From: an uncultured Phascolarctobacterium sp.
GTDB taxonomy: Bacteria > Bacillota > Negativicutes > Acidaminococcales > Acidaminococcaceae
Length of the DNA stretch: 64,000 nt
Assembly (NCBI GenBank): GCA_947629685.1
Contig: CANREP010000007.1
Coordinates: 1 to 64,000, forward strand
Direction: 5' to 3'
Translations under genes and position numbers: made by a program
Shown here: positions 9,806 through 42,572 of the stretch, piece after piece
Numbering within the stretch: the first letter of the stretch is position 1
Layout: every line of letters starts with the position of its first letter
The notes under the pieces: model-generated
What the model saw: only the letters and a program-made list of their open reading frames with translations
The model's database searches: none
What the model was told of the DNA's origin: nothing

Positions 9806-9834
9806 TGTTTATATCCCTATCATAGTTTATATAG

Positions 9835-9860: not shown

Positions 9861-9862
9861 AT

Positions 9863-9964: not shown

Positions 9965-9972
9965 CCATATAT

Positions 9973-10001: not shown

Positions 10002-10064
10002 TATAGTCTATCGCTATCATTCTCTGGCATTAATCATCAAATATTCCAACATACAATATTTGTA

Positions 10065-10958: not shown

Positions 10959-10975
10959 TTTATACCACCTCTTAT

Positions 10976-11542: not shown

Positions 11543-11561
11543 TGCAAAGCTCCTATTTTAC

Positions 11562-11573
11562 TCAAATATTTGA
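11562..11573. promoter_or_regulatory. Perfect 12-bp palindrome upstream of the membrane protein gene
   Basis: TCAAATATTTGA in the 90-base gap between the methyltransferase gene and the membrane protein gene, ending about ten bases before the ribosome binding site. Possible operator; could be chance in AT-rich DNA. Confidence 0.3.
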
Positions 11574-11632
11574 CAACCTAAAAATATATCAATTCAATTT
11601 TTGCAAAATCATCATCTTACCCATCTTCCCCC

Positions 11633-13462
11633 CTACACATCCCAAACAGTTTCATCACCGCAGATATTACGGATTTTCAGGCGCAAAGGTTTTTCTTTGC
11701 ATAAGATTCTGCCATCCCAGAAATCTTTTGTTTTCTCACCGTTAACTATAATATAGCCGTTTTTATCAATTTTTATCTCACTGTCAGAATGCCATTCGCC
11801 ATCTTGCGCAGTGCAGTCAACACTCAGCATTTCTATCAGCTCCAAACCTTCTTCACTAATGGTAATGGGAGTAAATTCTTTCTTAGTATTCAGAAGATTT
11901 TTATCGTTAAATTCGGCAATTTTTCCCTGTACACGGTCGCTTACAAAGCTGTCAATACTTACAGCATAACCGCCAAACAAATCTTCATGTACTTCATCTA
12001 CATGAAATTCTGCATAATCTTCTATTACAACATCATCAAGAACTGTTTTTAGATCACGCAGCTCAATTTCAACGGTGGTGCTATCATCTTCAGCAATAAA
12101 TTTATTGATTTCATCTTCACTGGTAATATCTACATAATACACGATAACTTTTTTAATATCGCTGCTTAAATCCGGTATAGCCTGATGAATAATACGGTTC
12201 ATCAGTACCTTATCAAGCAGTTTGGTACTGCTGTCCATCAGGTTGGGAACATACACCGGAACAGTACCAAGCTTACTGTCTGTAATAATACCTTCCCAGA
12301 AAGAATCTAAAGAATCTTCATTTTTCAGACCGGGAATAAGTGTCTTAATTTTATCCATAGTCTGCACAGGATTGCGATACAGCTGCACGCCGTCTTTAAT
12401 TTCTAATACATCAAATTCTGCGCCATCAGCTCTTAAACGGTCACGGGTAGTCTGGATAGAATTAAGACCGACATCACAGTGAATAAATCTACGGCCAAGC
12501 TTATTGGCTACAGCAGCAGTAACACCACTGCCGCCAAAAAAGTCAGCTACAAGCATTTCTTGATTTGACGCAGATTTTATTACCTTTTCTAATAACGCTT
12601 CTGGCTTTTGCGTTGCATAATCCATTCGTTCTTTAGCAAATGGATTTATTATTGAAATTTCCCATACATCTTCTGGAAATTTTCCATCTTCATTTGGCTT
12701 ATAGTTTAATACTCTATCTGCACTTCCAGTATTACTATATTTATTTCTTGCAAGAGTTGTTGGGGAATATTCATCTCTTACATCATCATAATTAAAAATA
12801 TGTTTATCATCTATTTTACTATACCAAAATAATGTATCATGTTTTTTACCGAATGACCTCTTACTAGTTCTTGCTCCAGCATATTTCCATATTATTTCAT
12901 TAATAAAATTATCCTCCCCAAAAATTTCATCAAGCAATATTTTTACATAATGACCAATATGCCAATCTAAATGCACATAAATAGACGCTGTTTCACTCAT
13001 TACTGACTTAATCGCCATCAGATTTTCATACATCCAGTTCAGATATTTTTCTTTATCCCACACATCGCCATACATTTTTTCTTCAAAAGCTTTCAGCTCT
13101 TCAAGGTCAAGTTCCTGTTCTGCCCTGACAATAGCTTCTGCTACCTTGGGGTTACGGCGAATATATACCTTCTTAGCATAATCTGCGCCGCTGGCAAAAG
13201 GCGGGTCAATGTATACCAGGTCAACCTTAATTCCCTGCTCTTTTAAATAAGCGCAGGCGGAAACACATTCGCCGCGGATAATCATATTACCGTCTTTATT
13301 TTCACCTACTGTCTCCTGCTTTTCCATTTCATATAACGGCATTCCACGCTGCAAGGTCATAGAAACCTCGTCAGCACCTTTATACTTCAGTATTCTGTTA
13401 AAATTAAGTACTGCCTGCCCTTCAACAGGCTCCGGGATAAATGGTACATATTTTACAGGCAT
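11633..13462 (-). CDS. mod: Type III restriction-modification DNA methyltransferase (Mod)
   Basis: 609 residues. Methyltransferase motif IV (DPPF, residues 86-89) comes before motif I (DFFGGSG, residues 307-313), the beta-class order of type III Mod proteins that make N6-methyladenine. The region between (about 190-290) includes the variable target-recognition part, and [11 protein letters not shown] is motif X-like. It both protects host DNA and gives sequence specificity to the Res subunit encoded upstream. The ATG overlaps the stop of the 68-residue gene by one base (TGATG), so the genes are coupled. The recognition sequence cannot be read from the sequence. Confidence 0.95.
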
Positions 13463-13668
13463 CAGCGTTGTCCTCCGTTATGCATAAATCTTATAAATTG
13501 TTCAAGTAAAGCAATCATTCCTACGGATGCAGCAATTTCTTTTACTAATTGTTCTTGTTGTACTGGGTTTAATTTATTAAATGCGTCAAGGCACTCTATA
13601 AATTTCTTTTTTGCATCTATATATTTATCATCAAATTCAATACCAATTACCGGTCTAATTTCATTCAT
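13462..13668 (-). CDS. Small protein between Res and Mod, function unknown
   Basis: 68 residues, mostly helical, starting [14 protein letters not shown] and rich in charged residues; no known domain recognised. A GGAG site precedes the ATG. It begins two bases after the res stop codon and its stop overlaps the mod start, so it is translated as part of the restriction-modification operon. It may be a small subunit or regulator of the complex; this is inference from position only. Confidence 0.72.
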
Positions 13669-13670
13669 AC

Positions 13671-16532
13671 TCAGTTCTCCTTAAAAAACTCACAAATCTT
13701 TTTATGTGTCAGTTTAATCCTCTCATCTTCTGACATGCTATCTTCCAAATACAGATATTCAAATCTTTCATATCCGTACTGTGCATTATTCTGTCTGGTA
13801 AATTCTCTTTCCATAAAGCTGCGTTTATCCTGAAACTTGGGGTCATTAGCATAAATTTTGCCCTTTGTTTCAACGATAATAGCTTTATGGATTTTATTAT
13901 TTTTACGCTGAATAACCAAAAAGTCCGGCGTATACATCCCTATATAGATCCATTTATTACCGCTGTGCTTATAACATTTAATTTTAAATTCTGTCATGGC
14001 ACGGTCACCATTGTAATAAACTTCCAAATTTAATGTTTCTATTTCCTGCAAGGTAAGTGTTTCTGCTAAGAATCTCTGTTCAAAACTGCTGTCTGTACGA
14101 TAGGGCAGATAATGAAAAGAATGATTTTTCTGAGGATGAGATACCTTGGACGCTTTCAATTTTTCTGCCAGTTCAATATTACCTGTTTCTTCCAGCAGTT
14201 TTATTGCCTGAGCAGTCTTCTTATCCAGCTTCAGTTTGCCTTTATCGTCGGCGATTATATTTTCAACAACATTTTGAGCAGGATAATAGCTCTCAGTATC
14301 GTCTGTTGCAATTACAGGTGTAAAATTAGCTATGTTCAACAAACTTGCCTCATCAGGAATAAGTTCTTCTATAGTAGTAAAATCTCGTTTTTCATAAAAT
14401 GCCTTACGGATATTGGCTTCTACAAGTTTATGGTCATATAAAGAACTAAAATAACGTACATTATCTTTTGTATAAGTAATTTTATTAAAAACATCCTGTA
14501 AAAGCATACGTTTTGCATTTAGCTGCGTCATTGTAATAAAGCCAAAACTGTCTTTAACCATACCATACAGCCATGCGTTAAAAGTCGCAGGTGTTGTTCC
14601 TCTTTCCTCTGACAGTACCTCTGTCTTTTTTATTTGCATGGATAAATCTGTTGTTCTTATGATATTTTCTATATTAGCATTATCAGCAGAAATTTTTATT
14701 TCTGTATCCGTATCACGATTCTTATCAACCATTACCGTATTATAGTTAATTTTTAACTGATAATAATCTATTTTAGGTAATTTTAAATAATCGTTGCGAT
14801 TATAGCGTTTAATAATCGTTTTACTGTTATCCGCAGCAGAAAATTCCTGCAAAGAAATATGCTGTTGCTGCACCAGCTGTGTATTAAGTTTTTCTGCATT
14901 ATCTTTGTTAAGATAAATAAGTGCTGTTTCAGGCATATCTTTTACAACCTGACGCAAACAACGACAGGAAGTCTGTAAAACCATATTTTTAGGGCAGTCA
15001 CCCTCCTGTGAAAGGATAATACCAGTTAAGCTACGGCAATCCCAGCCTTCCTTACCAATCTGTACCAAAAGTATAACTCGTATTTTAGAAATCGGATTGT
15101 CAAGAGTATCAAACTGCATTTGACTATCTGCAGGCTGAGGGTACTTTTTATTACCCTTGTGAAATTTAAGGATTACATCATTATTCAAACCATAATCGCT
15201 AAGAATACGAGAAACTAAAGGATAAACCAATTCTTCACATTTTTCGATAGTACCGCAATAAATGCCAAGTTTAGCAGTTAAACCATCTTGATAAACAGTA
15301 TCTTTGTAAGTATCAAAAAACTGCCTTACACCTTGCTCAATGATTAAACTGCTATCGGCAATATCAGCAATTTTAACTGTAGGACGTTTCAGAAAATTGC
15401 CAATCCCTTCAATAAGCGGATAATAATAAACGATATTTGTAATTTCTGCTGTACCGACAGTCAATTTATCTTCTACTTTTATTTTTTCTGCCTTTTCCAG
15501 ATAAGGTGTACCGGAAAAACCGATAACAGAATTTACAGTTTTATTTTGCGCCCATTTGCTTACAACGGCGCGAAGCTTTATTTCATCACTGACAGCATGA
15601 TGTACTTCATCAATAAAAATCGCTAATGAAGGTAATTTACCAAGCAGGTTCCGCAATTCATTAGCTTTTCTGTCTTTTTCATCATCACTTTCTTCAAAAA
15701 GTTCTATCTGTCCGTCTTTTTCTTTAATACGGTCAAGAATAACTTTTTCTGCATTAGTTACCGCCACTAAGCCAAAAAGCTCTGATAACGGCTGATGATT
15801 AGCAATTTTTTGTACATTGGGATTCTTAACTTTATTAGATTTATTGGCAGTTTTCTGCTGGTCTAAAACCTCAAAAGCAATCATCCTTTTAATATCTGTT
15901 GCCGCTGGTTCCGGTATTATCCAGGCAGGATTAAACTTTTGGATAGTCTTTAAACTTGGCACTACAGAAGATTTTAATCCTGATGGCGCAAAGATAATAA
16001 AGTTATGAGCAAAAGCCGGATTATTGGGCTCATTAGCAGCAAAATACAAATCAAGATAAATAAAAGCTGCCATCAAATAAGTTTTGCCTGCACCCATAGG
16101 AAGGCTAAATAAATAATCTGTATATGAAACTCCATAAAAAGCTTTATTAAAAAATTCGGCATAATTTATACTTGTCGGATCTTTTTTTATTTGCTTTTCA
16201 ATTTTTGCAGAAATCTGCTCACCTCTATCATTTTTAAGGCAGGCATACTCAAATAAAGCAGCAGCAGCAGGATTATTTTTCAAGTAATCGCGAATATTGG
16301 TAGATAACTCTATAACATCTAAATTTATAGAGTTGAATTTACCATTTACAAACAGCGTTTCTAAAGGTTTACATCCACACGCTATTTTCAGAAAAAGATA
16401 AATCTTTATTCCTTCAATTTGAGCATCACGCATTTGCCCTGTTTTCTCAATGTATTCAATTAAATTTTTTACAGTGCATAAATCTGATTTATACCACTCA
16501 TTGCACTTTTTTTCTATCATTTTATAAAACAT
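13671..16532 (-). CDS. res: Type III restriction enzyme Res subunit (DEAD/DEAH helicase plus nuclease)
   Basis: About 953 residues. Walker A LPMGAGKTYL (GAGKT at about 147-151), Walker B IFIDEVHHA (DEVH at about 308-311), a C-terminal helicase lobe with QIGKEGWDC and LQTSCRCLRQ, and a C-terminal PD-ExK nuclease core: PDFLV at about 869 and VETKGK with Glu at about 888 and Lys at about 890. This is the translocating endonuclease that works with Mod. The start at 16532 (MFYKMIEKK) follows AAGGAG; an upstream TTG reading to 16559 has no ribosome site. Located 16 bases after fic. Confidence 0.94.
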   Translation of the reverse strand: MFYKMIEKKCNEWYKSDLCTVKNLIEYIEKTGQMRDAQIEGIKIYLFLKIACGCKPLETLFVNGKFNSINLDVIELSTNIRDYLKNNPAAAALFEYACLKNDRGEQISAKIEKQIKKDPTSINYAEFFNKAFYGVSYTDYLFSLPMGAGKTYLMAAFIYLDLYFAANEPNNPAFAHNFIIFAPSGLKSSVVPSLKTIQKFNPAWIIPEPAATDIKRMIAFEVLDQQKTANKSNKVKNPNVQKIANHQPLSELFGLVAVTNAEKVILDRIKEKDGQIELFEESDDEKDRKANELRNLLGKLPSLAIFIDEVHHAVSDEIKLRAVVSKWAQNKTVNSVIGFSGTPYLEKAEKIKVEDKLTVGTAEITNIVYYYPLIEGIGNFLKRPTVKIADIADSSLIIEQGVRQFFDTYKDTVYQDGLTAKLGIYCGTIEKCEELVYPLVSRILSDYGLNNDVILKFHKGNKKYPQPADSQMQFDTLDNPISKIRVILLVQIGKEGWDCRSLTGIILSQEGDCPKNMVLQTSCRCLRQVVKDMPETALIYLNKDNAEKLNTQLVQQQHISLQEFSAADNSKTIIKRYNRNDYLKLPKIDYYQLKINYNTVMVDKNRDTDTEIKISADNANIENIIRTTDLSMQIKKTEVLSEERGTTPATFNAWLYGMVKDSFGFITMTQLNAKRMLLQDVFNKITYTKDNVRYFSSLYDHKLVEANIRKAFYEKRDFTTIEELIPDEASLLNIANFTPVIATDDTESYYPAQNVVENIIADDKGKLKLDKKTAQAIKLLEETGNIELAEKLKASKVSHPQKNHSFHYLPYRTDSSFEQRFLAETLTLQEIETLNLEVYYNGDRAMTEFKIKCYKHSGNKWIYIGMYTPDFLVIQRKNNKIHKAIIVETKGKIYANDPKFQDKRSFMEREFTRQNNAQYGYERFEYLYLEDSMSEDERIKLTHKKICEFFKEN

Positions 16533-16548
16533 AAAATACTCCTTAAAT

Positions 16549-17439
16549 TCAATGCTCAATCCTGAAATAATCTAAATACGCTTTATATTTATCCTGTGCG
16601 GAAAGACAAGTATCTTTCAGATAACCTTTTTCCCTGTCCCATTCTTTTAAACCTCGATAATAGAAAAGTTTCAGATTATCCTCAATGATAAAAGGCACTA
16701 TATTATATTTAAGACACTCTTTAAACATAATCAGCCTGCCCACACGGCCATTGCCATCCTGAAATGGATGTATTTTTTCAAACTTCACATGAAAATCCAG
16801 TATGTCATCTAAAGTTTTGTCATGCTTAGAATTGTATTCTCGCAGCAATTCTTTTATTTTACCCGCAACTTCTTCCGGTAATACAGCTTGCATACCGCCT
16901 ACTTCATTTGGCAGTTTTTTATAATCACCTGCTGCAAACCAGTCTTTTCTCGCATCACTGATACCATTTTTTAATGTCAGATGCAGCTCCTTAATGAATT
17001 TTTCCGTTAAGCTTGCTTTCGCATTGTCTATAATCATATCGATGCAGCGAAAATGATTGGCGGTTTCAATTATATCGTCTACATTAAGTACTTCATTTTC
17101 TATACCGATAGTGTTAGTTTCAAAAATATACCTTGTCTGCTCATGGGTTAAACGACTGCCCTCCATATGGTTGGAGTTATAAGTCAGCTCAATCTGTGTT
17201 TTATGATAAATTCCTCCGGGATACTTATTCTTTTTTTCCGAGCGTAAAATATCCAATAGCATAACTGGCAGCTTTTGTCGTTTATTGCTTCGTTCAGGTT
17301 TTTTAGCATTTGCAGGAATTTTCCATGTTTTTCCCTCCAAAAATGCACTGTCCACACGACCACTGGCACAATAGTTTCGTACGCTGCGCTCTGATATATC
17401 CCATTTTTTAGCTATGTCAGCAACTGAAAGATATTTCAT
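16549..17439 (-). CDS. Fic-domain protein with N-terminal helix-turn-helix
   Basis: 296 residues. Residues 1-45 look like an excisionase/MerR-type winged helix (SVADIAKKWDISERSVRNYC). The Fic core has the catalytic loop HPFQDGNGR at 224-232. An inhibitory-helix motif S-x-x-x-E-G (S89 to G94) lies N-terminal to it, as in self-inhibited class II Fic proteins. Fic enzymes transfer AMP or other groups to proteins. First gene of the res-mod run, sharing its promoter; it may act as a regulator or as a second toxin-like defence layer (inference). Confidence 0.92.
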   Translation of the reverse strand: MKYLSVADIAKKWDISERSVRNYCASGRVDSAFLEGKTWKIPANAKKPERSNKRQKLPVMLLDILRSEKKNKYPGGIYHKTQIELTYNSNHMEGSRLTHEQTRYIFETNTIGIENEVLNVDDIIETANHFRCIDMIIDNAKASLTEKFIKELHLTLKNGISDARKDWFAAGDYKKLPNEVGGMQAVLPEEVAGKIKELLREYNSKHDKTLDDILDFHVKFEKIHPFQDGNGRVGRLIMFKECLKYNIVPFIIEDNLKLFYYRGLKEWDREKGYLKDTCLSAQDKYKAYLDYFRIEH

Positions 17440-31529: not shown

Positions 31530-31583
31530 AATAAAAAACAGCACTTTCAAAGATTAAGATTCTTTAAAAGTGCTGTTTTTTTA
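31530..31583. terminator. Bidirectional terminator between the 359-residue gene and the exported-protein cluster
   Basis: Eleven-base stem AACAGCACTTT (31537-31547) with AAAGTGCTGTT (31567-31577) flanked by A and T runs; ends transcripts from both sides. Confidence 0.9.
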
Positions 31584-32342
31584 TCCTCTAAATATTTGAA
31601 CCCAGTAATGTCTATAACCACCTACACCATATAAATCATAACAATATCCAACACCTAATTCTCTAAAAGATTTATTTAAAATATTACTTCTGTGCCCTGG
31701 AGACTCCATCCAACCTTTCATTACATCTTCTGGAGTTCGTGAACCGGCAGCAATATTCTCTCCTAAACCTTTATTTTGTCTTTTGCCTAAAACGGTAAAA
31801 CACTTTTCCCCATTAGGCCTTTCATGCGAAAACACTTGCGTTAATTCTTGAACACGTATGTAAGCCCCTTTTTGCAAATCATCAGCCAATCGCAATGGTT
31901 TTGCACCAACTTTAGCTCGCTCAATATTAACTAACTCTAAAATTTTTACGTCAAAATTAGCAATTTCCTCATTAGTTAATAAATCATTATCAACTTGTTC
32001 CTCCCACCCTGCTGAACCTAAATTATCTTGTGTCACTACATGTACTAAAAAACACAAACGCTCACATATAGGAGGATTAAAACACACAGGATACAAAACT
32101 TTTAAAACAGTGTCTCCCGTATTTTTAAAAAGCAGTTTTTCTTTATTTTCTACAGTAACTTGCTCAGCAAACGCATGATCAAATTCATACGTAACTGCAG
32201 GAACATCTACAAAAAAATAACTATTGACAGGCAAACATATTTCCTGATCGAAAATTTCGTTATTTGCTGCTGAACAAACACCAGAACATACACAACCTGC
32301 AATAATTACACAAAAAATATATTTCATAAAATTTTTTAACAT
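31581..32342 (-). CDS. CAP-domain (SCP/PR1-like) exported protein
   Basis: 253 residues. The N-terminus is an export signal; it may be a lipoprotein (lipobox IIAGC at about 13-17) or may be cleaved further on. The middle region (about 30-110) is beta-rich and unassigned. The C-terminal CAP domain (about 125-250) shows LVNIERAKVGAKPL, VFSHERPNG, GENIAAGSRTPEDVMKGWM and SPGHRSNIL, the core CAP signatures including conserved His and Glu. Last gene of the exported cluster. Confidence 0.9.
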   Translation of the reverse strand: MLKNFMKYIFCVIIAGCVCSGVCSAANNEIFDQEICLPVNSYFFVDVPAVTYEFDHAFAEQVTVENKEKLLFKNTGDTVLKVLYPVCFNPPICERLCFLVHVVTQDNLGSAGWEEQVDNDLLTNEEIANFDVKILELVNIERAKVGAKPLRLADDLQKGAYIRVQELTQVFSHERPNGEKCFTVLGKRQNKGLGENIAAGSRTPEDVMKGWMESPGHRSNILNKSFRELGVGYCYDLYGVGGYRHYWVQIFRG

Positions 32343-32369
32343 TAAAACTCCCGCCTTATTATTTTTCTT

Positions 32370-33443
32370 CTACCATACTGCAATCATCAGCCTATTATAA
32401 GAACTGGAACGCAATTCTACATGACATTCTATATTACTCTCTATTTGTGCAAATAATGTTTGCGGAGAACCTGCATAATTCATAGAATACGTTCCCCTAC
32501 CATCCTTATAAGCTAAATTGATATTCTTAACGTCTTTTATTTTATGAAGCGCATTCTCAACCGCCATAATTTTATCATACCCTGCTCCTACAACTATTAC
32601 TTCTATTCTCTGACGGTTACCAGCTGCCAATTCCAATAACTTGCTTGACAAATACGTGCCCATTTCTTTCCCCGCGACTTTTGAAGCCTTTTGGGCGGCT
32701 ACTTCCACAGAACTATCTACAGCAGCTCCGTCTTTACTGCCTGACGCTATAATCTGCCCTGTAGCTTCAACATACATCTTAGCATCTAAGCATATACGAC
32801 AGCTCAACGTCCCAGTCTTTTTTTTGCCAGGTAAAAATTTGCCAATATCTCCAATATTTTCACAGGTTGCATTGCCTACTACCAGAATATCTGCCTGCAT
32901 AGATTGCGCCACCAAATGCAATTTTTCACTATTTAAATTAAATGCATTACTGTATTCGGACCTATACCGGCCTATATCCAGCATATTATCAAAACCAGCA
33001 TCATTAAAAGCTTTAACAACAGCTGTTTCCGCAGTAAAGTCTGACGGAATAAGAACCGCAATTTTAGGATTGCGTAATTTATTATCAATCAATCCCAATT
33101 TTGTCAGCTCATCCATCAATTGAGATTCAGGATGTAAATCAACTTCTGCATTTATCACTACACGCCAGCCGTTAGTATCTTCTTCAGATTCTATAACATC
33201 ATATTTACTGATGAAACCTTTACTGACAGCATATATTTTATCTTCTAACACAACATTTTTATCTACCATAGTTTTGGAATCAATTAAAACTCCAACTGCA
33301 GTTTCCACTGCATTGCGCAAAGCATCGTTCATAGCCTCATTATGAGTTACTCCTACTCCCGTTGCAGTAATATTTTCGGCACTAACATTTTGGCAGGTTA
33401 TTACAGATAACACCAGAAAAAAAAGTACGATAAATTTTTTCAT
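32370..33443 (-). CDS. Exported FlgT-N/LPP20-like protein
   Basis: 357 residues with a signal peptide ending VSA-EN. Residues about 25-105 form a FlgT N-terminal/LPP20-like domain: ATGVGVTHNEAMNDALRNAV, GVLIDSKTMV, SKGFISKYDVIE. A second alpha/beta domain (about 120-240) contains IAVLIPSDF and ADILVVGNATC, a CsgG/TolB-N-like fold. Clear paralogue of the gene at 40898-41974 over its first 100 residues and the same layout. FlgT-type proteins build rings under the outer membrane; no flagellar genes are seen here. Confidence 0.8.
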   Translation of the reverse strand: MKKFIVLFFLVLSVITCQNVSAENITATGVGVTHNEAMNDALRNAVETAVGVLIDSKTMVDKNVVLEDKIYAVSKGFISKYDVIESEEDTNGWRVVINAEVDLHPESQLMDELTKLGLIDNKLRNPKIAVLIPSDFTAETAVVKAFNDAGFDNMLDIGRYRSEYSNAFNLNSEKLHLVAQSMQADILVVGNATCENIGDIGKFLPGKKKTGTLSCRICLDAKMYVEATGQIIASGSKDGAAVDSSVEVAAQKASKVAGKEMGTYLSSKLLELAAGNRQRIEVIVVGAGYDKIMAVENALHKIKDVKNINLAYKDGRGTYSMNYAGSPQTLFAQIESNIECHVELRSSSYNRLMIAVW

Positions 33444-33447
33444 AATA

Positions 33448-34284
33448 TCAACCCCGTTTTACATAACACCCTTCAGTAATCTTATCATTTTCTTTAATAA
33501 TCTTACATACTGAATATTCCTCGCTTGTATTTTCTACCTTCAGTTTCCCCAAAACTACTTCTTCTACTGTAATAATTTCACCACTTACAGGATGTCTAAT
33601 CACTTTTCCTTCTTTATAAACAATAAGGGTATCGTTTATATGTACTCCATTATCACTGCCAATATCAATATATACTTTATCATTACTTACGCTGACAATC
33701 ATCCCTGTAACAGGATTATGCTTGTCAATAATCTTCTTTACTTTCTCAGCAACATCACCAGCCGCATTAGCAATCATAATATCTTTATCAGGATATTTAT
33801 TTTCATATTCGCTTACTGTATCAGAACCTTCAACCAATTCAGCAATGTCAATAAGCCCTGTCTTATTATCAATAAATTTAAAATTAAATTTTATTTTCGC
33901 TTTGTATCCCTTATATAAATAGTTATTAAAACGTTCATATTCTGCCAAAGTTACATTGCCAACAATTGTATAATCTGCTCCCAATATATCACCAAATTTA
34001 ATAGCTGTTTCACTATTTATAAGGCCGCTGCTATGCAAATTAAGCTCACTCAATACATGCTCCAACTGTGCTCGTTCTACAACATTATAATTTCCGCTCT
34101 GCACTAATATAGTATTCAGAGCCGCTTCTAAATCTTGGGCAGCCTTTCTGCCATAACTGTTTTTTACGCCATTTTCCACTTTAGTTACCGCAACTGTTTT
34201 TTTGGCCGCTTCACAACTGATATTTCCTATCATCATTATTGTAAATAGCAAAAAAGACAATATTATTCTTAATATATTTTTCAT
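33448..34284 (-). CDS. Exported CsgG-like protein with FlgT C-terminal domain
   Basis: About 278 residues. Signal peptide, then a CsgG-like domain (about 30-190): YNVVERAQLEHVLSELNLH, SSGLINSETAIKFGDILGAD, YTIVGNVTLAEY. The C-terminal 80 residues (VTGMIVSVSNDKVYIDIGSD to the end) fit the FlgT C-terminal SH3-like domain. The ATG at 34284 has AAGGAG in front; a GTG reading begins earlier without a site. The combination of CsgG- and FlgT-type parts ties the whole cluster together. Confidence 0.82.
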   Translation of the reverse strand: MKNILRIILSFLLFTIMMIGNISCEAAKKTVAVTKVENGVKNSYGRKAAQDLEAALNTILVQSGNYNVVERAQLEHVLSELNLHSSGLINSETAIKFGDILGADYTIVGNVTLAEYERFNNYLYKGYKAKIKFNFKFIDNKTGLIDIAELVEGSDTVSEYENKYPDKDIMIANAAGDVAEKVKKIIDKHNPVTGMIVSVSNDKVYIDIGSDNGVHINDTLIVYKEGKVIRHPVSGEIITVEEVVLGKLKVENTSEEYSVCKIIKENDKITEGCYVKRG

Positions 34285-34318
34285 TTTCAAAACTCCTTTT
34301 TCCTCAATCACAGTTACT

Positions 34319-35071
34319 TTACCTACTTAAATCACATAAATAGAATAATAAGAATTCATTTTGTAAATATTTCTCTGCAACAGGCCACAACCATTTCTTC
34401 TTCATTACCGTATCGTTATACAAATCTAAATAAAACTTACTCGTCCCATAATTATCAATGCAATTAGCGCTTTTTTGAAGTAATTCTAAAAATTTATCTT
34501 CATTTCCTAATACTAAATTGGCCATAGCCAAAATCCGCAAATTATCCGATTGTTCATCTTTATTTAATAAAAAGCATATTTCTTTCGCCAATAATTGTCC
34601 TTTTTGATAGTATACCTCTTTTTCAGGCCTATAAGCCATATCACCAGCATGGCATAGAATAGCATAATCGAGTAACAATCTTACATTATTATTACTCAAT
34701 AGTTCATTTTGCAAAAACTTTTCTGCTTGTAAAAATGCACTTTTGGCATACGGAAGTACTCCTTTACCACGATATATCTGCATGGAAAGAATAACATAAG
34801 AAATATTACTATCATCTATAATCCTGGCTTTCGCTATATCAGAAATAGCAGTTGCATAAAGAGTTCCTCTTTCCGCAGCTACATTAGTATTTTTAGCCGC
34901 ATAATATGCTTCATACGCCTGATTAAAGTACTTTATACTCTGAGGTACGGTATCAATAAAATCTTTCTCTGCGCTGACATATTCAAAATTTTGTTCTTCA
35001 CAGTCAGCCTTTGCGACTATCAACAGCATAAATATAAAAAAAATATTTAACAATAACCGAGCAAACTTCAT
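34319..35071 (-). CDS. Exported protein of unknown function in the CsgG-like cluster
   Basis: About 250 residues with a signal peptide ending AKA-DC. The mature part is entirely helical, with regularly spaced aromatic and alanine residues suggesting TPR-like or other helical repeats (about 60-230), though no repeat consensus is clear. Position between a terminator upstream and the CsgG/FlgT gene downstream suggests a periplasmic adaptor role; this is inference. Confidence 0.65.
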   Translation of the reverse strand: MKFARLLLNIFFIFMLLIVAKADCEEQNFEYVSAEKDFIDTVPQSIKYFNQAYEAYYAAKNTNVAAERGTLYATAISDIAKARIIDDSNISYVILSMQIYRGKGVLPYAKSAFLQAEKFLQNELLSNNNVRLLLDYAILCHAGDMAYRPEKEVYYQKGQLLAKEICFLLNKDEQSDNLRILAMANLVLGNEDKFLELLQKSANCIDNYGTSKFYLDLYNDTVMKKKWLWPVAEKYLQNEFLLFYLCDLSR

Positions 35072-35090
35072 TCTCCACCTCATGACTTAA

Positions 35091-35129
35091 TAAAAAAGAG
35101 GAATATACCTAAAATATAAGTATATTCCT
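35091..35129 (-). terminator. Internal terminator within the exported-protein cluster
   Basis: Ten-base stem AGGAATATAC (35099-35108) with GTATATTCCT (35120-35129), followed on the minus strand by TTTTTT. It lies after the LPP20-like gene and before the next gene, which starts only about 20 bases later, so it likely acts as a partial terminator setting gene dosage. Confidence 0.82.
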
Positions 35130-35146
35130 GTCTCCTTAAAATAAAT

Positions 35147-36079
35147 TTATTTTACAAAAACAACAGAACATTGATTAAATATATTATTTTTTTCATTAGC
35201 AAGCAAAATTTTATCACCATCTTCTACTGATACAACAACATTTACAGGATTGACAGAATTCACCCCGCCTTTAACAGTAACAGCTTTCACAACCAAAGGA
35301 TTTACACCTGCTCTTGTGTTGCCGCCAGCAGCAGTTTGGACGTCCACTGCATATTCTACCATCCCTTTAGAAATAGCAAAATCTTTATCAATATTCTGTA
35401 CACCGTAAATAGCTCTGCCGTTCTCATCAAAAATTACTGGCGCAAAAGTAGCCTCCAAACCAAGCCCTGATGCATCGACAATAACACCTGTATAATTTAC
35501 AGCTCTTACTTCCTGTATTACCTCTTTAGTTAGAACGGTATTACTTTCGTCAATCTTTATAGCAGGTTTAGTATCAATATTTTTCATTACTTCCGGCATT
35601 ACTGCGTTTGCAAGGCTATTGCCAGTGCCAAACAAAGGTACTCTCATTTTTACAAAATAACTACCATCTTCATTAGCACCTTCTTCAATTACGCGAGCCC
35701 CCTTAATTAAAGCCTTTACCCTTGCGTTAACAGTATCGCTCTGCAGTACTAAAGACTCAACAGTAGTTTCTGAATCAATCTGCACACCCTCAATAGTTTC
35801 AGCAAGCAAACGATAAGCATCAACAATTGCTGCACGCCTTGCAAGAACACTACCACGATTGCCAACATTTTCCGGCGGATAACCTACACCTACAGTAACA
35901 ATATCAGATTCACTCCCTTTAGTCCAGTTCACCGCACCGTTTTGCTGCACATTGACATTAACTGCAACACTTGTTTCGGCAGATGCAACAGCCATCGCAG
36001 GAATAACATTACTTCCTCCAAAAGATAATGCCAATCCTAAAAATACTGCTGTTGCCATTTTTTTACTATTCATTTTCAT
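35147..36079 (-). CDS. Exported LPP20-family-like protein
   Basis: About 310 residues, signal peptide ending near ASA-ET. The LPP20/FlgT-N fold (about 60-155) is the clearest in the window: GSVLARRAAIVDAYRLLAET, GVQIDSETTVES, VKALIKGARVIEEG. The C-terminal half (about 170-310) is beta-rich with GxxVxA repeats and may be a second domain. LPP20 lipoproteins such as FlgP form outer-membrane-associated rings, but here no lipobox cysteine is seen. The ATG at 36079 has AAAGGTGG upstream; the earlier ATG at 36103 does not. Confidence 0.8.
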   Translation of the reverse strand: MKMNSKKMATAVFLGLALSFGGSNVIPAMAVASAETSVAVNVNVQQNGAVNWTKGSESDIVTVGVGYPPENVGNRGSVLARRAAIVDAYRLLAETIEGVQIDSETTVESLVLQSDTVNARVKALIKGARVIEEGANEDGSYFVKMRVPLFGTGNSLANAVMPEVMKNIDTKPAIKIDESNTVLTKEVIQEVRAVNYTGVIVDASGLGLEATFAPVIFDENGRAIYGVQNIDKDFAISKGMVEYAVDVQTAAGGNTRAGVNPLVVKAVTVKGGVNSVNPVNVVVSVEDGDKILLANEKNNIFNQCSVVFVK

Positions 36080-36140
36080 TTTTCTTCCACCTTTCTTATA
36101 CATGTTTTATTTACATTACAAAAACAAACATTTAAAAAAT

Positions 36141-36812
36141 CTATATTTTATCTTTTGGCTCATTAAACAATTTGAATATAATATCATCTACAGCTGCATA
36201 TGCCGCTTTTTGAATAGCATTATGTACACTGTCTTGAGTTACCTTTACAGACCCTATCTCAATGACTTTTATATTCATCCAATCTCTGCCTGCCGCAAGA
36301 TTAACAAAACTGCTCTTAGATTTACCTTCGCCTTTTGCTACTGTGATAATAGTTCCAGTATCTATATCCATCATCCTAGCTATTATACGGGCTTTAACTG
36401 TGCAAATATTAACTCCACCACCTATGGCACCCAAAATCTCAGTACCTGTATCACTTACGCTCACATTTGCAACATTACCATAAATCAAATACTTCACATG
36501 CAATATTTCACCTATTCGTTTAGCAGTATCCGGATCAATAATACCTGTAACATTTAAATCTTCATCTGCAGCAACTTTAAGAGCAAAGTCTTTTTCTATA
36601 ACATTAAAACAATTACGATTTACTAAACGGGTAATTATATAATCGTTAGAAGTATGTTCTGCATTATTTATATTAATTTCAGCGGTAGTAGCTCCTGGAC
36701 GTGTACCGAAATCCATAACAGCAACATTAGCATTTCTATCAATTGCATAACCTGCTAAAGTGCATGCTGGAATATGAAACAAAAATAAGCATATAAAGAA
36801 AACTATTCTCAT
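36141..36812 (-). CDS. CsgG-like outer-membrane pore protein (shortest, best match to CsgG)
   Basis: 223 residues. After an export signal (possible lipobox IPAC at 14-17) it shows VAVMDFGTRPG, NVIEKDFALKVAADEDLNVT, GIIDPDTAKRIGEIL and YLIYGNVANV. Two stretches rich in alternating hydrophobic residues follow (about 130-155 and 172-200), where CsgG has its two membrane hairpins TM1 and TM2, then a C-terminal helix AIQKAAYAAVDDIIF. This matches the whole CsgG layout, so it may form a beta-barrel pore in the outer membrane. That it forms a ring is inference. Confidence 0.8.
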   Translation of the reverse strand: MRIVFFICLFLFHIPACTLAGYAIDRNANVAVMDFGTRPGATTAEININNAEHTSNDYIITRLVNRNCFNVIEKDFALKVAADEDLNVTGIIDPDTAKRIGEILHVKYLIYGNVANVSVSDTGTEILGAIGGGVNICTVKARIIARMMDIDTGTIITVAKGEGKSKSSFVNLAAGRDWMNIKVIEIGSVKVTQDSVHNAIQKAAYAAVDDIIFKLFNEPKDKI

Positions 36813-36825
36813 ATTTAATTACGAC

Positions 36826-37656
36826 CTACTTTAAAAAGAGAGTTCCATTTTCCAAATCTGTAATCAATGTATCAGAAATCAACTGTGCTGTAGCATCCAT
36901 GGCTTTATAATACATCTCATTATTTAATTTATCACTGCCAACTTTAATAAATCCAATATTTGTTTGGCTTTGCAAGTCAGACCCAACTACACATTTATGC
37001 CATACAACCTCGCCTGTTTTTGCCTTTATCAATCTCAAGTCAGCCTGAACGCCTACCCCAGTCTTTTTCACTGATAGATTATTTGCCAACATACCAACAG
37101 GCCCCAGCAAATTACCAACTCCTGCATTACCCATCACAGCCGTTGCTATATTAGCTCCGCGAATAATATTTTCAACTTTTTCGTCCATCCAATTCCCAGT
37201 TCCAAGATTAATAATAGTTCCTTGGATTAAATAATCAACTTTATTTGCCAACCCAATAGCAGCAATAATATCAGGAGATACAAATTGTCCAACTGTTGCT
37301 GTAGCAATAGATTGTGCTTTATTTTCGTTAAATCCTCTACCTTCAAAAAGTACACTGTAATTACCATTTGTCATTGCCCAACGAGCATTGGCAAACTCCT
37401 CAACACGTTCATCGTACAATCTTTTCTCTAAATTTTCATCAATAACCTTAGTTTCCTTAAAATTAAATTTACCACTCGTTAAAAGCTTTTCTAATACTAA
37501 ATCTGACAAAGTACCTGTAGATTCAATTTTGTCAAAACGGGTATCATCAGTAAATTTCATCAGCGCGCATGAAGGTAAATCATTAGCAAAAACAGAGGTT
37601 ACCTGCAAACACATATACATTATCAGTGTAAATAATAATGCTGTTATTTTACTCAT
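36826..37656 (-). CDS. Exported CsgG-like protein
   Basis: 276 residues with signal peptide ending VFA-ND. CsgG-type core: LPSCALMKFTDDTRF, then VDYLIQGTIINLGTGNW and a long glycine-rich segment (about 150-200) in the place of membrane hairpin 1, followed by VQADLRLIKAKTGEVVWHK and a C-terminal helix AMDATAQLISDTLI. Diverged in sequence from the other three CsgG-like proteins, suggesting different subunits of one assembly. GGAGG precedes the ATG. Confidence 0.75.
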   Translation of the reverse strand: MSKITALLFTLIMYMCLQVTSVFANDLPSCALMKFTDDTRFDKIESTGTLSDLVLEKLLTSGKFNFKETKVIDENLEKRLYDERVEEFANARWAMTNGNYSVLFEGRGFNENKAQSIATATVGQFVSPDIIAAIGLANKVDYLIQGTIINLGTGNWMDEKVENIIRGANIATAVMGNAGVGNLLGPVGMLANNLSVKKTGVGVQADLRLIKAKTGEVVWHKCVVGSDLQSQTNIGFIKVGSDKLNNEMYYKAMDATAQLISDTLITDLENGTLFLK

Positions 37657-37674
37657 TTTATATTCCTCCGTTGT

Positions 37675-38466
37675 TTATTTCTTCTTAGCGTTTACTTTTA
37701 CACCTTGAGGAACCTGCAGATATGATTGATCAGGTGTTGGCGAAAATTCATTAATCTTAATAATAGTTTTATTACCTTCCATAATACCAGAAGCATTAGT
37801 CCAATATTGTACTGCTGCTATTTTTACCATATTATAACCATTAAAGTAATATCTTACAGCCTCAAAGATACCTTGTGCATCAGACTTGTAATCCTCATAA
37901 TTCAAGCCATTATCAAGCCATCCTGATCCAACATACCTAAATGAAGGCATATCCATGCTTTTCTCATCATTCGGCAATAAGGCATTTAAATATCTGGTCA
38001 TTTGGCTACTACCATAAGATGCTCCCTGCATCTTATATGCAAGTTCATTTATATTATCAGCCGTAATGCTTCCTTTTTTATTACCATATATGTCTACTTT
38101 CTTACCATTAAAATACTTTACAAAAGTATATTGATCAGTTCCAATCTGCAAACGGCACTGTGTAAAATCTCCACATTTAATTTCTTCATACCTATTATTT
38201 CCATCTGCAACTGCAACGCTCTCAGTCTGACTATTCAATAAAAACGAAGACTGACTCGTATCCATACTATTCTTTCCGTACATATGGATTTTATCTTTAT
38301 TAGTAATACGTGGTTCCGGAGTAATATCAACATATTTTATCGTATACGTTTTATTTTTTAATAAATTTCGATAAGTATCTGAGTTTCTTGCTTCAGCATT
38401 TTCTGACACTGAACAACTTATTCCGGTTATAAGCAACAATAATATTAAAAACGTACTTAATTTCAT
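37675..38466 (-). CDS. Exported protein with LolA-like fold features, paralogue of the next gene
   Basis: 263 residues, signal peptide. Beta-rich with a final segment INEFSPTPDQSYLQVPQGVK that resembles the C-termini of LolA/outer-membrane-lipoprotein-sorting-type proteins, where a P-x-G-x-K-V strand ends the domain. It shares N-terminal YRNLLKNKTYTIKYVD and C-terminal features with the gene at 38482-39306, so the two are diverged copies. Function unknown; carriers of hydrophobic cargo in the periplasm are one possibility. Confidence 0.62.
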   Translation of the reverse strand: MKLSTFLILLLLITGISCSVSENAEARNSDTYRNLLKNKTYTIKYVDITPEPRITNKDKIHMYGKNSMDTSQSSFLLNSQTESVAVADGNNRYEEIKCGDFTQCRLQIGTDQYTFVKYFNGKKVDIYGNKKGSITADNINELAYKMQGASYGSSQMTRYLNALLPNDEKSMDMPSFRYVGSGWLDNGLNYEDYKSDAQGIFEAVRYYFNGYNMVKIAAVQYWTNASGIMEGNKTIIKINEFSPTPDQSYLQVPQGVKVNAKKK

Positions 38467-38481
38467 AAAAACCTACCTCCA

Positions 38482-39306
38482 TTAATATTCTTCTATCAAT
38501 ACCGGTTTATCAAGCAAATCGTTCATATCGCCTATTCCCGCAGCATATACTTTACATCCTTTTGGTATTTTTAGAATATTTTCCGGTAACTCCTGCGTAA
38601 TTTTCTTGATTTCCATTTTTTGCAATATTATATCTATTCCAGTTCCGTCGTTCATACGCGTATAAATATACTTTAACTCACCTTTATCGTAATAAAAATA
38701 ATAATCTTTATTGAATAAAATCTTCCCAGTTTTACTCTTTATACCTGCAGAATATTTATCATAAGTAAATTCTTTTTTATCAAGAATCTCTTTTCCGCTT
38801 TCTACATAAACTGGAATTGAAGAACCTGAAAGTCTTTCACTAAACATATCTTCAGGTGCTAAGACAGCAAGTTCTTCAGGCAATGCCAATTTGTATTTTA
38901 CACTGCCCCAGCCTTCCATTGGATCTAAATTGGGATTATTAAGCTGATCCCATGTAGCCATAACAGCCTTTTTTTTGCCTTCAAATTGATAAAATTTTCC
39001 TGCTTCATAATATGTTGTAGGAGTCTTTTGTTCGTTTGTCATAAAAAGAGACCCGATAGCTAAAAAAGGATTAATTAAAGAAAGGCCCATTGCGGCAAAA
39101 GAGTTGTCTTTTTTGTATACCGTATAATCCATTCTTCTATTATCTTGAACAGCTAAAATTTTCTTTGCATAATTCAATTCATACTCAACATAATATGTGC
39201 CAGATTGCAAAATATTTCTTAATTCAGTAGCCTGCGGTTGTTCAGCGTACACATTAGCCGCCAAAGTACTCAAAGTCAATGCCAAAGCGACAATTTTCAT
39301 TTTCAC
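38482..39306 (-). CDS. Exported protein with LolA-like fold features
   Basis: About 274 residues, signal peptide ending VYA-EQ. LRNILQSGTYYVEYELNY at the N-terminus, an alternating strand pattern, and PENILKIPKGCKVYAAG at the C-terminus match the layout of its neighbour at 37675-38466. A hydrophobic stretch at about 73-92 could be a buried loop. The GTG at 39306 is preferred because AGGAG is 8 bases before it. Confidence 0.62.
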   Translation of the reverse strand: MKMKIVALALTLSTLAANVYAEQPQATELRNILQSGTYYVEYELNYAKKILAVQDNRRMDYTVYKKDNSFAAMGLSLINPFLAIGSLFMTNEQKTPTTYYEAGKFYQFEGKKKAVMATWDQLNNPNLDPMEGWGSVKYKLALPEELAVLAPEDMFSERLSGSSIPVYVESGKEILDKKEFTYDKYSAGIKSKTGKILFNKDYYFYYDKGELKYIYTRMNDGTGIDIILQKMEIKKITQELPENILKIPKGCKVYAAGIGDMNDLLDKPVLIEEY

Positions 39307-39341
39307 AATAACCACTCCTATAAAATGATATGCGCTAAAAT

Positions 39342-40886
39342 TTAGAATCCAGTTTTTATTTTTAACTGTTTTCCATTATTTAAAACAGTCATAATACCTG
39401 TTTTTCCGTATATGGCATCTCTGACGGCTTTGCTAATAGCATTAAGCACCTGTACATCAGACACTTCCACGGTACCAATAACAATGTTATAGTTAATATT
39501 GTCTCTTTCATAATAAATATTTTTATTACTTGACGAAACTGTACTTTGAGTATTATTTTTTTGAATACTTTCATTTTCATATTTATCATAATAATTCTCA
39601 TTAGTATTTACGGTCATACTATTATTTGAAGTTTTTTGACTTATATCCTCTATATTATATTCATTTCTATCTTCTGCATTGACTTTAACAATGCCATGTG
39701 TCGTATTATAATCTTTATATTTTTGAGGTACTAGATGATATAGTACACTCTTCATAATACTTTGAGTTTCCCCTTTTTCAACAATGTTTTTTAATATAGA
39801 TAAATCAGTTAACGTAATATACCCATCACCATTCAAATCAGCTTCTAATATATTTATATATTTATCTCTATTTCCTACCAGATAGTACTTTAATCTCTCG
39901 ACATCGTTCTCATCAACCTTTCCATGTATATCGCCACTATCAACATCACCTCTAATATGTTTATAGGTAAGATAATATAAACCATTAACTATTTCTCTCA
40001 ATTTCCAAGCATCTTTTATTGTTATTTCTCCATCACCATCTATATCTGCATTTTTTTCACAAAAATGTCCATTTTTTTCCCCGTGCATGAAGTAATATTC
40101 TATAGCTTTAAAATCATGTTCATCTATCTGCCCATCTTCATTTATATCGCCTTCGATACTAACAAATTTTACATCTACATTATTATTATCAATTTCACCT
40201 TTAGTATTGTTTTTCTCGTTTTCTAAATATGCCATATTTTTTTCATATTCATAGGATCTATCATTAATTTCATATCCAGAACTGTTCCTATATTCATCTG
40301 AGACATTATTGACTACACTATTATAAATATTCTCTGTTTCTACTTTTCTATTTCTATATTTAGTAAATCCTATTTCCGTTATAGTACTTGTCGAACTGCC
40401 TTTGCCAATACCAGCTGCAACAATACGACCAGTTTCTATATCTACAATACGAACAGTTACATTTGCACTAACAACATGTTGTGCATTCCCTGCCTTTGCA
40501 TTATACGCATGTATTCCGGCAATGTTTTCTTTAGTTGTCAGACCAGTAACATTACCAATAACCATAAACTGAGCTCCTGCAATTTTACCCATTTGAACTG
40601 CGGTTCCCTGATCAATAAGGCCTGACATATTTATTTTATGCATTTGAGCAATAGAATTAAGTTGCTCATAATCAATCAAGTCAAACCATCCACAGGCAGA
40701 AAGCTGATAAATAGCATATTCCGTAGCCATAGTTATATCATGCTGTCTAAGTCCCTGACTCATTATAGCCTTATTACCAAAATCCATTACTGCAACACGC
40801 GGATAATCTTTAATATTAGCGGCGCTGGCAAAATTAGCAATTATGCACAACATCGGCATTAATAAATATTGAAAAAATTTATTCAT
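39342..40886 (-). CDS. CsgG-like protein with two inserted dockerin modules
   Basis: 514 residues. Signal peptide ending ASA-AN, then CsgG core: VAVMDFGNKAI (31-41), WFDLIDYEQLNSIAQMHKIN, SGLIDQGTAVQMGKIAGAQ and FMVIGNVTGL. Residues 113-145 and 161-190 correspond to the two CsgG membrane hairpins; the sequence leaves the second hairpin near residue 190 and returns only at about 465 (INYNIVIGTVEVSDVQVL), ending with the usual C-terminal helix. Within the gap lie two dockerin modules (247-302 and 313-372), each with a pair of calcium loops such as DINEDGQIDEHD, DIDGDGEITIKD and DLNGDGYITLTD; one loop (DVDSGDIHGKVDEND) is altered. Flanking segments are Asn/Tyr-rich linkers. Confidence 0.87.
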   Translation of the reverse strand: MNKFFQYLLMPMLCIIANFASAANIKDYPRVAVMDFGNKAIMSQGLRQHDITMATEYAIYQLSACGWFDLIDYEQLNSIAQMHKINMSGLIDQGTAVQMGKIAGAQFMVIGNVTGLTTKENIAGIHAYNAKAGNAQHVVSANVTVRIVDIETGRIVAAGIGKGSSTSTITEIGFTKYRNRKVETENIYNSVVNNVSDEYRNSSGYEINDRSYEYEKNMAYLENEKNNTKGEIDNNNVDVKFVSIEGDINEDGQIDEHDFKAIEYYFMHGEKNGHFCEKNADIDGDGEITIKDAWKLREIVNGLYYLTYKHIRGDVDSGDIHGKVDENDVERLKYYLVGNRDKYINILEADLNGDGYITLTDLSILKNIVEKGETQSIMKSVLYHLVPQKYKDYNTTHGIVKVNAEDRNEYNIEDISQKTSNNSMTVNTNENYYDKYENESIQKNNTQSTVSSSNKNIYYERDNINYNIVIGTVEVSDVQVLNAISKAVRDAIYGKTGIMTVLNNGKQLKIKTGF

Positions 40887-40897
40887 AATTTTGTCTC

Positions 40898-41974
40898 CTA
40901 AATACTTATTTCTAAAACGTTTTCAGAACTGCTTTCTAAAAATACATTCATATGTTCCCTAAGCGCCTTATAAAGCTGAACTGGCTTTAAAACTGTTTCT
41001 ACTTCAATAAATCCTTTCCCCGCACTAAAAGAACGTATCTGGACATTATGAACTCCGGAAATTTTTCTGATAGTTTGTTCTATTTTTAAAAAGTCATCGT
41101 TGCTGTCCGTTTTGATGATAACGTTTACATAATTATCAATATTAGAAGCTTTCAACGCAAAAATTTTCCGTAAACTTTCTGCTGCGTTAATGCCGAGTTT
41201 TTCTACCGCTTTAGTTTCAGCAACTTTTTTATCACTTTGCAGTATAGATTCTTCTACTCTAAATTGACCTATTATTTCCTGCGTATCGGCTTTCATAACT
41301 TTAACTTCCAAAGTCGCCAAAGATTTTAATAAACCTGTATTTACCTCAGAAACTTCCTCACCGCTTGTCATCCTTCTGTAATTTGGTAATGTTATATCTT
41401 TTGTATGAATATCCAATATTCCTAATACAATATAGTCAGTATCTATATTATTAAAATTTTTATTATCTGGATAAGCTTTTATTTTTTCTGCATCCAATAC
41501 ATGATTAAAGCCCAATTTTATAAGTTTGTTATTCATATATGATTCACATATTGTAGAATATTGATTATTTCTTTCATTCCTATCATTATAGTCATCAATT
41601 ATTACAGTAATCCTTGGATCGTTAAGTGCCATAATCATACTTAATTCATCTATTAAACGAGCATTTGGCTCAGCATCAACATCTATCTGGGCAGTTATTC
41701 TGTAAAAATCTCCTTTCTGCATTTCATTTAATATTTTTATATTTTTCACAAAACCTTGAGATTTCGCATATATATCATCTAAAGCTACAATAGACTTATC
41801 AACAAGAGTCCTTGAATCTATAAAAATTCCTACAATACTTTCTACAGCATTTCTCATGGCGTCCTTTAATGCTGCGTCCTTATCATGTCCCACGCCGTCC
41901 ACCGTCACAGTCTGTGCAAAGGCGGCATTATGTATAATAATTATCAACAAAAATGCTATAAACTGTTTTTTCAT
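40898..41974 (-). CDS. Exported FlgT-N/LPP20-like protein, first gene of the cluster
   Basis: 358 residues, signal peptide ending AFA-QT. N-terminal FlgT-N/LPP20 domain: VDGVGHDKDAALKDAMRNAV, GIFIDSRTLV, YAKSQGFVKNIKILNE (about 22-105), then a second alpha/beta domain with ITVIIDDYND and TDYIVLGILDIH, and a C-terminal part VNVIIKTDSNDDFLKIEQT. Strong paralogy with the gene at 32370-33443, near the other end of the cluster. AAGGGA precedes the ATG. Transcribed from a near-consensus promoter at 42136-42164 with a leader of about 155 bases. Confidence 0.8.
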   Translation of the reverse strand: MKKQFIAFLLIIIIHNAAFAQTVTVDGVGHDKDAALKDAMRNAVESIVGIFIDSRTLVDKSIVALDDIYAKSQGFVKNIKILNEMQKGDFYRITAQIDVDAEPNARLIDELSMIMALNDPRITVIIDDYNDRNERNNQYSTICESYMNNKLIKLGFNHVLDAEKIKAYPDNKNFNNIDTDYIVLGILDIHTKDITLPNYRRMTSGEEVSEVNTGLLKSLATLEVKVMKADTQEIIGQFRVEESILQSDKKVAETKAVEKLGINAAESLRKIFALKASNIDNYVNVIIKTDSNDDFLKIEQTIRKISGVHNVQIRSFSAGKGFIEVETVLKPVQLYKALREHMNVFLESSSENVLEISI

Positions 41975-42135
41975 TTCTTTGTTCCCTTTCTATTGATTTA
42001 AAGAAAACTATTATGCCCTGTTATTTTTCTAAAAATACTCTGTTAACGTCAATAAAAGCCAATTTTTAGTATGCTTAAATAGTTTTATATAAACATTCGT
42101 TATACATTTACAATTCAAAATACTTTATATGTAAA

Positions 42136-42164
42136 ACTATACAACTTTTAGCATTTTAAGTCAA
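42136..42164 (-). promoter_or_regulatory. Sigma-70 promoter of the exported-protein cluster
   Basis: On the minus strand TTGACT (42159-42164), a 17-base spacer and TATAGT (42136-42141). Start near 42129 gives a leader of about 155 bases before the first gene. Confidence 0.85.
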
Positions 42165-42185
42165 TAAAACATACATTTTTTTATG

Positions 42186-42216
42186 TTGTATTTATTCTCA
42201 TTGTATATCATATAAT
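42186..42216 (+). promoter_or_regulatory. Possible promoter of the XRE regulator gene
   Basis: TATAAT at 42211-42216 with TTGTAT at 42186-42191; the spacing is 19 bases, longer than ideal. It lies back to back with the cluster promoter. Confidence 0.45.
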
Positions 42217-42239
42217 TATTTATATGGAGGTCTCCTGCT

Positions 42240-42572
42240 ATGTATGAAGATTTTGTAGCAAACAGAATTATACAACTGAGACAAGAAAAGAAAGTTTCAG
42301 CCCGCGAGATGAGCATAGCGATCGGACAAAATGTAAATTACATTAATCGCATTGAAAATAAACGAAATTTACCATCACTTCAGGGATTATTTTACATATG
42401 TGAGTATTTCAACATTACTCCACAAGAATTTTTTGAAGGAACAAAAGCATCTCCTGCATCACTAAATCAAATGGATGAAGCAATACATATTTTATCTACT
42501 CTTGATGAAAATCAACTTTCTCTTGTTGTTTCTGTTGCAAAAGCCATACAAAATAAAAATAACCAGCCATAG
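42240..42572 (+). CDS. SinR-like XRE-family transcriptional regulator
   Basis: 110 residues. N-terminal HTH_3 domain (about 9-64): RIIQLRQEKKVSAREMSIAI and NVNYINRIENKRNLPSL. The C-terminal 40 residues form two helices (MDEAIHILSTLDENQLSLVV), which could be a dimerisation region. GGAGG precedes the ATG. Divergent from the exported cluster with 265 bases between, so it is the obvious candidate for its regulator, although no operator could be proven. Confidence 0.9.
   Translation: MYEDFVANRIIQLRQEKKVSAREMSIAIGQNVNYINRIENKRNLPSLQGLFYICEYFNITPQEFFEGTKASPASLNQMDEAIHILSTLDENQLSLVVSVAKAIQNKNNQP

Follow-up and report, generated by a model that had tools for sequence, protein, structure and literature searches.

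We find that a dockerin recurs in a conserved operon of CsgG-type genes in the Negativicutes. In one genome of this class, that of an uncultured Phascolarctobacterium sp., the gene slot that usually holds the dockerin protein is empty, and two dockerins are instead carried by a CsgG-fold subunit itself. The gene for this subunit, here referred to as gene B, lies in the window, i.e. the whole stretch of 64,000 nucleotides that was analysed, and is listed with its parts and neighbours in Table 1. Its coordinates, strand and length are those given in a preliminary description of this DNA. Based on these data, we suggest, at a confidence just short of even, that gene B encodes a CsgG-fold and probably ring-forming protein in which flexible arms would present the double dockerin for calcium-dependent docking to a partner that is not a recognisable cohesin.

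Table 1. Gene B, its parts and the surrounding operon (positions are those of the window; residues are those of gene B)
Feature	Positions	Strand	Basis
Promoter-like site upstream of gene A, TTGACT-17-TATAGT	42136..42164	-	consensus match only
Gene A, first gene, LPP20/FlgT_N/LipL46-like secreted protein, 358 aa	40898..41974	-	Pfam
Gene B, whole ORF, 514 aa, CsgG-fold subunit into which a double dockerin is inserted	39342..40886	-	ORF list, Pfam, AF2
Gene B, signal peptide, residues 1-22, MNKFFQYLLMPMLCIIANFASA	40821..40886	-	sequence reading; AF2 helix 3-20
Gene B, N-terminal part of CsgG core, residues 24-178, hairpin 1 and rising strand of hairpin 2	40353..40817	-	Pfam, HHalign, AF2
Gene B, linker 1, residues 179-245, low complexity	40152..40352	-	sequence, AF2
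Gene B, dockerin 1, residues 246-303, calcium loops 1 (247-258, DINEDGQIDEHD) and 2 (281-292, DIDGDGEITIKD)	39978..40151	-	Pfam
Gene B, dockerin 2, residues 313-373, calcium loops 3 (314-328, expanded, DVDSGDIHGKVDEND) and 4 (350-361, DLNGDGYITLTD)	39768..39950	-	Pfam
Gene B, linker 2, residues 374-461, low complexity	39504..39767	-	sequence, AF2
Gene B, C-terminal part of CsgG core, residues 462-514, returning strand of hairpin 2 and C-terminal helix	39345..39503	-	orthologue alignments, AF2
Gene C, secreted, 277 aa, conserved in operon, no Pfam family	38482..39315	-	Pfam, operon comparison
Gene D, secreted, no Pfam family over cut-off, 263 aa, conserved in operon	37675..38466	-	Pfam, operon comparison
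Gene E, secreted, LpoB/CsgG-like, 276 aa; matches to Pfam stay under cut-off	36826..37656	-	Pfam, operon comparison
Gene F, second CsgG-family protein, 223 aa, without insertion	36141..36812	-	Pfam, alignment
F-G junction, 37 bp, empty slot; dockerin-bearing secreted gene sits here in relatives	36104..36140	-	operon comparison
Gene G, LPP20-type secreted protein, 318 aa	35147..36103	-	Pfam, operon comparison
Gene H, 254 aa, without Pfam family	34319..35083	-	Pfam, operon comparison
Gene I, CsgG domain and FlgT_C-like tail, 287 aa	33448..34311	-	Pfam
Gene J, LPP20/LipL46-like, 357 aa	32370..33443	-	Pfam
Gene K, CAP-domain secreted protein, 253 aa	31581..32342	-	Pfam
Terminator-like hairpin directly after gene K, 20 pairs, T-rich tail	31534..31580	-	consensus match only

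By its Pfam profile, gene B is a member of the CsgG family, with a match at residues 28-178 (PF03783; hmmscan, 1.7e-15, 57.3 bits against a curated cut-off of 20.8). It also contains two type I dockerin repeats, each with paired EF-hand-like loops (PF00404; hmmscan, two stretches, 4.1e-16, 59.4 bits against a cut-off of 22.9); scored singly, the repeats reach 38.8 and 33.1 bits, and each exceeds the curated cut-off. Pfam and the sequence itself thus confirm the two dockerins and four calcium loops that the preliminary description had placed in residues 247-372, with the qualification that the third loop is aberrant (15 residues instead of 12), while the other three are canonical and keep their ligands. 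The linkers on either side are rich in Asn, Ser and Glu. In a profile search of the 1.78-Mb genome, this pair was the only occurrence of dockerins. It is extremely improbable that the arrangement is an artefact of assembly or gene prediction; apart from its rarity, nothing was found in favour of this, while gene B is a single open frame within a 74-kb contig, completeness and contamination of the assembly are rated at 100% and 0.06%, and the operon is intact on both sides, with the consecutive genes A-K (31581-41974) separated by gaps of 4-63 bp.

The CsgG fold previously claimed for gene B, here with two long hairpins, is supported by Pfam, by HHalign and by an AlphaFold2 model of an insert-free orthologue from a Phascolarctobacterium MAG (L035, pLDDT 87). 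In this model, the hairpins span residues 106-124/130-149 and 154-185/191-208, and the second hairpin turns at 186-190. The gene B core, modelled mostly at pLDDT 85-95, has the same long strands (107-127, 130-149 and 155-174) up to the loop, which lies below pLDDT 50 from about residue 188 to 462. The dockerin region was modelled at low confidence and has no aligned rows; because dockerin fragments were unalignable to the insert in the folding alignment, the model of gene B is uninformative for the dockerins. HHalign pairs A158 of gene B with S189 of the E. coli CsgG precursor, so that the middle of E. coli TM2, the limits of which we take from established knowledge, corresponds to about residue 179, the start of the loop. 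What has been inserted amounts to some 283 residues of loop (about 179-461), the centre of which is occupied by the dockerins (246-373); as modelled, the insert sits at the tip of hairpin 2, i.e. at the end that faces outwards in the CsgG pore. The earlier claim that the dockerins split the CsgG fold exactly where TM2 turns is borne out by homology, with the refinement that the dockerins form the middle of a much longer loop.

Within the operon, the products of genes A, G and J resemble LPP20/FlgT/LipL46 proteins, those of B, F and I are CsgG-family proteins and that of E is LpoB/CsgG-like. A Pfam scan of all operon proteins found no CsgE, CsgF, curlin or other csgA/B/E/F-type neighbour. The same gene order, A-B-C-D-E-F-G, is seen again in Selenomonadaceae and in further members of the Acidaminococcaceae. 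In the window, the operon has a G+C content of 0.33 (31534-42240) versus 0.449 for the rest, and gene B finds no match in the one other genome of its genus; together, these two observations suggest acquisition by transfer, or loss in relatives, and the A-K operon may have been acquired horizontally. A divergent gene for an HTH_3 regulator (42240-42572) upstream of gene A is a candidate regulator of the operon. The window has a second stretch of low G+C (8001-16000, 0.33-0.35), which comprises a DNA methylase (11633-13462) and a match to a type III restriction subunit (13671-16559) and is probably a restriction-modification island.

Relatives repeatedly keep a dockerin in this operon. A separate dockerin gene is present within the operon in 12 other genomes (G019, G109, G164, G168, G171, G206, G216, G222, G223, G224, G231 and G271). 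It mostly lies between F and G, and in G019 and G109 it directly follows B; the dockerin of G168 was located between G and F by genome search, and G216 is a contig fragment with gene G only. Several of these separate proteins combine dockerins with ricin-type lectin, C-type lectin, SH3, peptidase M23, NlpC/P60 or C39 domains (Pfam), and those of G271, G164 and G216 are bare double dockerins with a spacing of about 60 residues, like the insert in gene B. Of 20 dockerin-bearing contigs that were retrieved, 14, that of the window included, have the whole operon or pieces of it close by. If 4.5% per contig is taken as the background, P is ~4e-15, a value that is indicative only because the background is assumed and the genomes are related. 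One dockerin, in L111, was missed by the Pfam scan, probably as an effect of the bias filter, and was revealed by genome search and sequence. The nearest in sequence to dockerin 2 of gene B are the dockerins in the operons of G019 (50%) and L034 (45%), a similarity that would fit a move within the operon without proving it. The more general finding is the recurrence of a dockerin in a conserved CsgG-type operon.

The F-G slot is also occupied in dockerin-less genomes. In G032 (L027, 8151-11989), it holds two secreted proteins with a barrel-like C-terminal region in common, of which the second also has a long passenger at its N-terminus, and in G017 (L028, 8409-9866) an SH3/M23 peptidase; across L027, L028, L159 and L160, the slot resembles a polymorphic site for cargo. 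Separately, Selenomonadaceae-type genomes encode proteins with at least five tandem dockerin repeats (L120, 6620-8692; L121, 459-5882; L124, 10449-11489; L125, 4388-6427), of which that in L121 also has a phage-lysozyme domain. These proteins have no cohesin, and no operon gene was found nearby.

The hairpin 2 loop that holds the dockerins in gene B varies widely among orthologues, from 38 (G019) and 43 residues (G223, G224 and G287) to 96, 115, 151, 167, 355 and 370 residues, and is mostly of low complexity. The long-loop orthologues G017, G032, G068, G109, L033 and L034 have no dockerin in the loop, and dockerins occur within the CsgG frame in one of the 86 genomes of the class with a match to the B profile, namely that of the window. 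This variability in length and composition, the low complexity of loops in dockerin-less orthologues, the singular arrangement, the aberrant calcium loop and the genome's lack of a cohesin are all compatible with the dockerins being a partnerless, calcium-folded spacer that landed in a permissive loop, where it is tolerated and possibly stabilising. We regard this as unlikely: three of the four loops retain canonical ligands, and the only dockerin pair of the genome lies in the very operon in which relatives keep theirs and which, here, lacks the separate dockerin gene. Such a coincidence is not what random insertion would lead one to expect.

The preliminary description had proposed that the dockerins capture cohesin-bearing proteins of the same cell, and had called for a search of the genome for cohesins. 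A profile search with the cohesin family (PF00963) gave no match in the genome, and across the genome, family and class it returned weak sub-threshold matches and a single foreign-looking one. This match, the only one over the cut-off among 380 Negativicutes genomes, is in G010 (L119, 4255-11925) and is a protein of 2556 aa with a dockerin of its own and a C-terminal sorting signal of the Gram-positive type. Its neighbours on a contig of 12 kb are a mobilisation protein and a site-specific recombinase (both named by eye), and this contig is probably a mobile element or a contaminant. In the other 20 genomes of the class with dockerins, PF00963 never exceeded the cut-off. The unusual architecture and the placement of the dockerins as originally read stand. 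Capture of the cell's own cohesin-bearing proteins is not supported and fails by the criterion that the preliminary description had set for it, and the genome encodes no recognised cohesin with which gene B could form a cohesin-dockerin system. Searches of the PDB by sequence, with genes C and D as well as with the CsgG alignment, found no relative and thus name no cohesin-like partner.

A cohesin unlike those in Pfam, or one from another species, is possible as a partner. In the latter case, the dockerins would capture scaffoldin cohesins of fibre-degrading gut neighbours and so mediate adhesion to these cells or to fibre-bound complexes. Operon-bearing relatives were obtained from the rumen and caecum of roe deer, dockerins are present here in cells that have no cohesins of their own, and cohesins are numerous in the rumen species Ruminococcus flavefaciens (PMC6118326). 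Even so, we consider capture across species very unlikely.

A separate question is on which side of the outer membrane the dockerins would lie. In CsgG, the hairpin tip is extracellular, and by analogy the dockerins of gene B could be exposed outside the cell around the pore mouth. Two observations weaken the transfer of this topology. First, CsgG is a lipoprotein (PMC6957492), while gene B, read by eye, has no lipobox cysteine at the cleavage region ANFASA-ANIKDYP; nor was a lipobox seen by eye in orthologues L030-L035. Second, the rising TM2 strand (TM2a) of gene B is only weakly hydrophobic even on its best alternating face, with 1.04 versus 2.54 in E. coli CsgG (0.7 to 2.4 in insert-free orthologues), values that are compatible with a pore as well as with a soluble ring. 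Because the hairpin of gene B has no strong lipid-facing side, its tip may lie in the periplasm.

Like PelC or FlgT, gene B might accordingly assemble into a ring that is soluble or apposed to the membrane instead of a pore inserted in it, with periplasmic dockerins tethering operon partners or peptidoglycan-acting proteins. The absent lipobox and the polar hairpin strands agree with this, as do the LPP20/FlgT/LpoB-like operon neighbours and the M23/NlpC/SH3 proteins of peptidoglycan type among the slot proteins. Against the PDB, the model of L035 has the pore form of CsgG on top (E 1.5e-10; Z 13.8, rmsd 3.6 over 175 residues), followed by FlgT (Z 13.4), PelC (13.2) and the LPHT ring (12.9). 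Since all three are less than 1 below CsgG, a ring that does not insert into the membrane is compatible with the fold. By contrast, the alignment to CsgG is longer (156-179 residues) than those to PelC, LpoB and TolB (112-137), pore-form CsgG outscores pre-pore CsgG, and the lectin domains of slot proteins are better suited to the outside. We hold the periplasmic arrangement to be fairly unlikely.

In the model that we favour, gene B is an envelope protein of CsgG fold that probably forms rings, and from the tip of its second extended hairpin a folded tandem dockerin is suspended in a long disordered tether. This tether is a loop that varies between species and tolerates insertions, in a protein of a conserved Negativicutes operon with the order A-B-C-D-E-F-slot-G. 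In other species, the dockerins of the operon are supplied by a separate secreted slot protein, whereas here they are part of the probable ring subunit; folded with Ca2+, they would hold a partner around the mouth of the ring or pore. This partner would be something other than a recognisable cohesin, perhaps an operon product, a surface component or the cohesin of another species. More broadly, we speculate that diderm Firmicutes may have a previously unrecognised, calcium-dependent docking system in which dockerins on slot proteins or, in this case, on a CsgG-type ring bind a receptor other than a cohesin and thereby recruit secreted lectins and wall hydrolases to a secretion or display complex of CsgG-like type, an improbable scheme in our estimation. 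Acidaminococcaceae such as Phascolarctobacterium consume succinate. In a bolder variant of this scheme, the dockerins would attach to cohesins of fibre-degrading neighbours that produce this succinate.

A link between dockerins and CsgG was not found in the literature beyond an unrelated annotation study, in a search that covered few of the subscription papers. Gene B shares with E. coli CsgG, the curli secretion channel (PF03783), the fold, the two long hairpins and the order of elements, and CsgG is the top PDB match of its insert-free orthologue. However, gene B has neither the lipobox nor the neighbours of a curli secretion channel; its hydrophobic face is weaker, and its hairpin 2 loop is extended to about 283 residues with two dockerins. 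It provides a naturally occurring case of a large, folded insertion at a CsgG hairpin tip, which is relevant to the engineering of CsgG nanopores, and it makes testable whether CsgG-type rings outside curli systems display or gather proteins by means of insertions at hairpin tips. FlgT/LPHT ring, PelC, LpoB and the TolB N-domain, which are of the same fold superfamily and serve as rings, activators or periplasmic adaptors, share the core fold at tied Z-scores and resemble the operon neighbours of gene B, which are FlgT/LPP20/LpoB-like; we know of no dockerins in any of them.

Dockerins are usually seen as parts of cellulosomes, and those without cohesins as curiosities without context. The dockerins of gene B have the Pfam family and the duplicated calcium loops of cellulosomal type I dockerins. 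They differ in that they form an internal tandem between two linkers, on a CsgG-fold protein, in a genome that has no cohesin. The earlier statement that dockerins normally end enzymes holds for cellulosomes, while in the Negativicutes analysed here they are mainly found on secreted proteins of the operon of gene B. Their recurring place in a conserved envelope operon, with one case on the probable ring subunit, now provides a context and makes it testable what dockerins bind where no cohesin exists. The non-cellulosomal dockerins of Peer et al. (2009, cited in PMC2930009) are, as far as that citation describes them, similarly few and similarly without cohesins; those reported here are, by contrast, tied to a conserved operon and to a mostly fixed gene slot.
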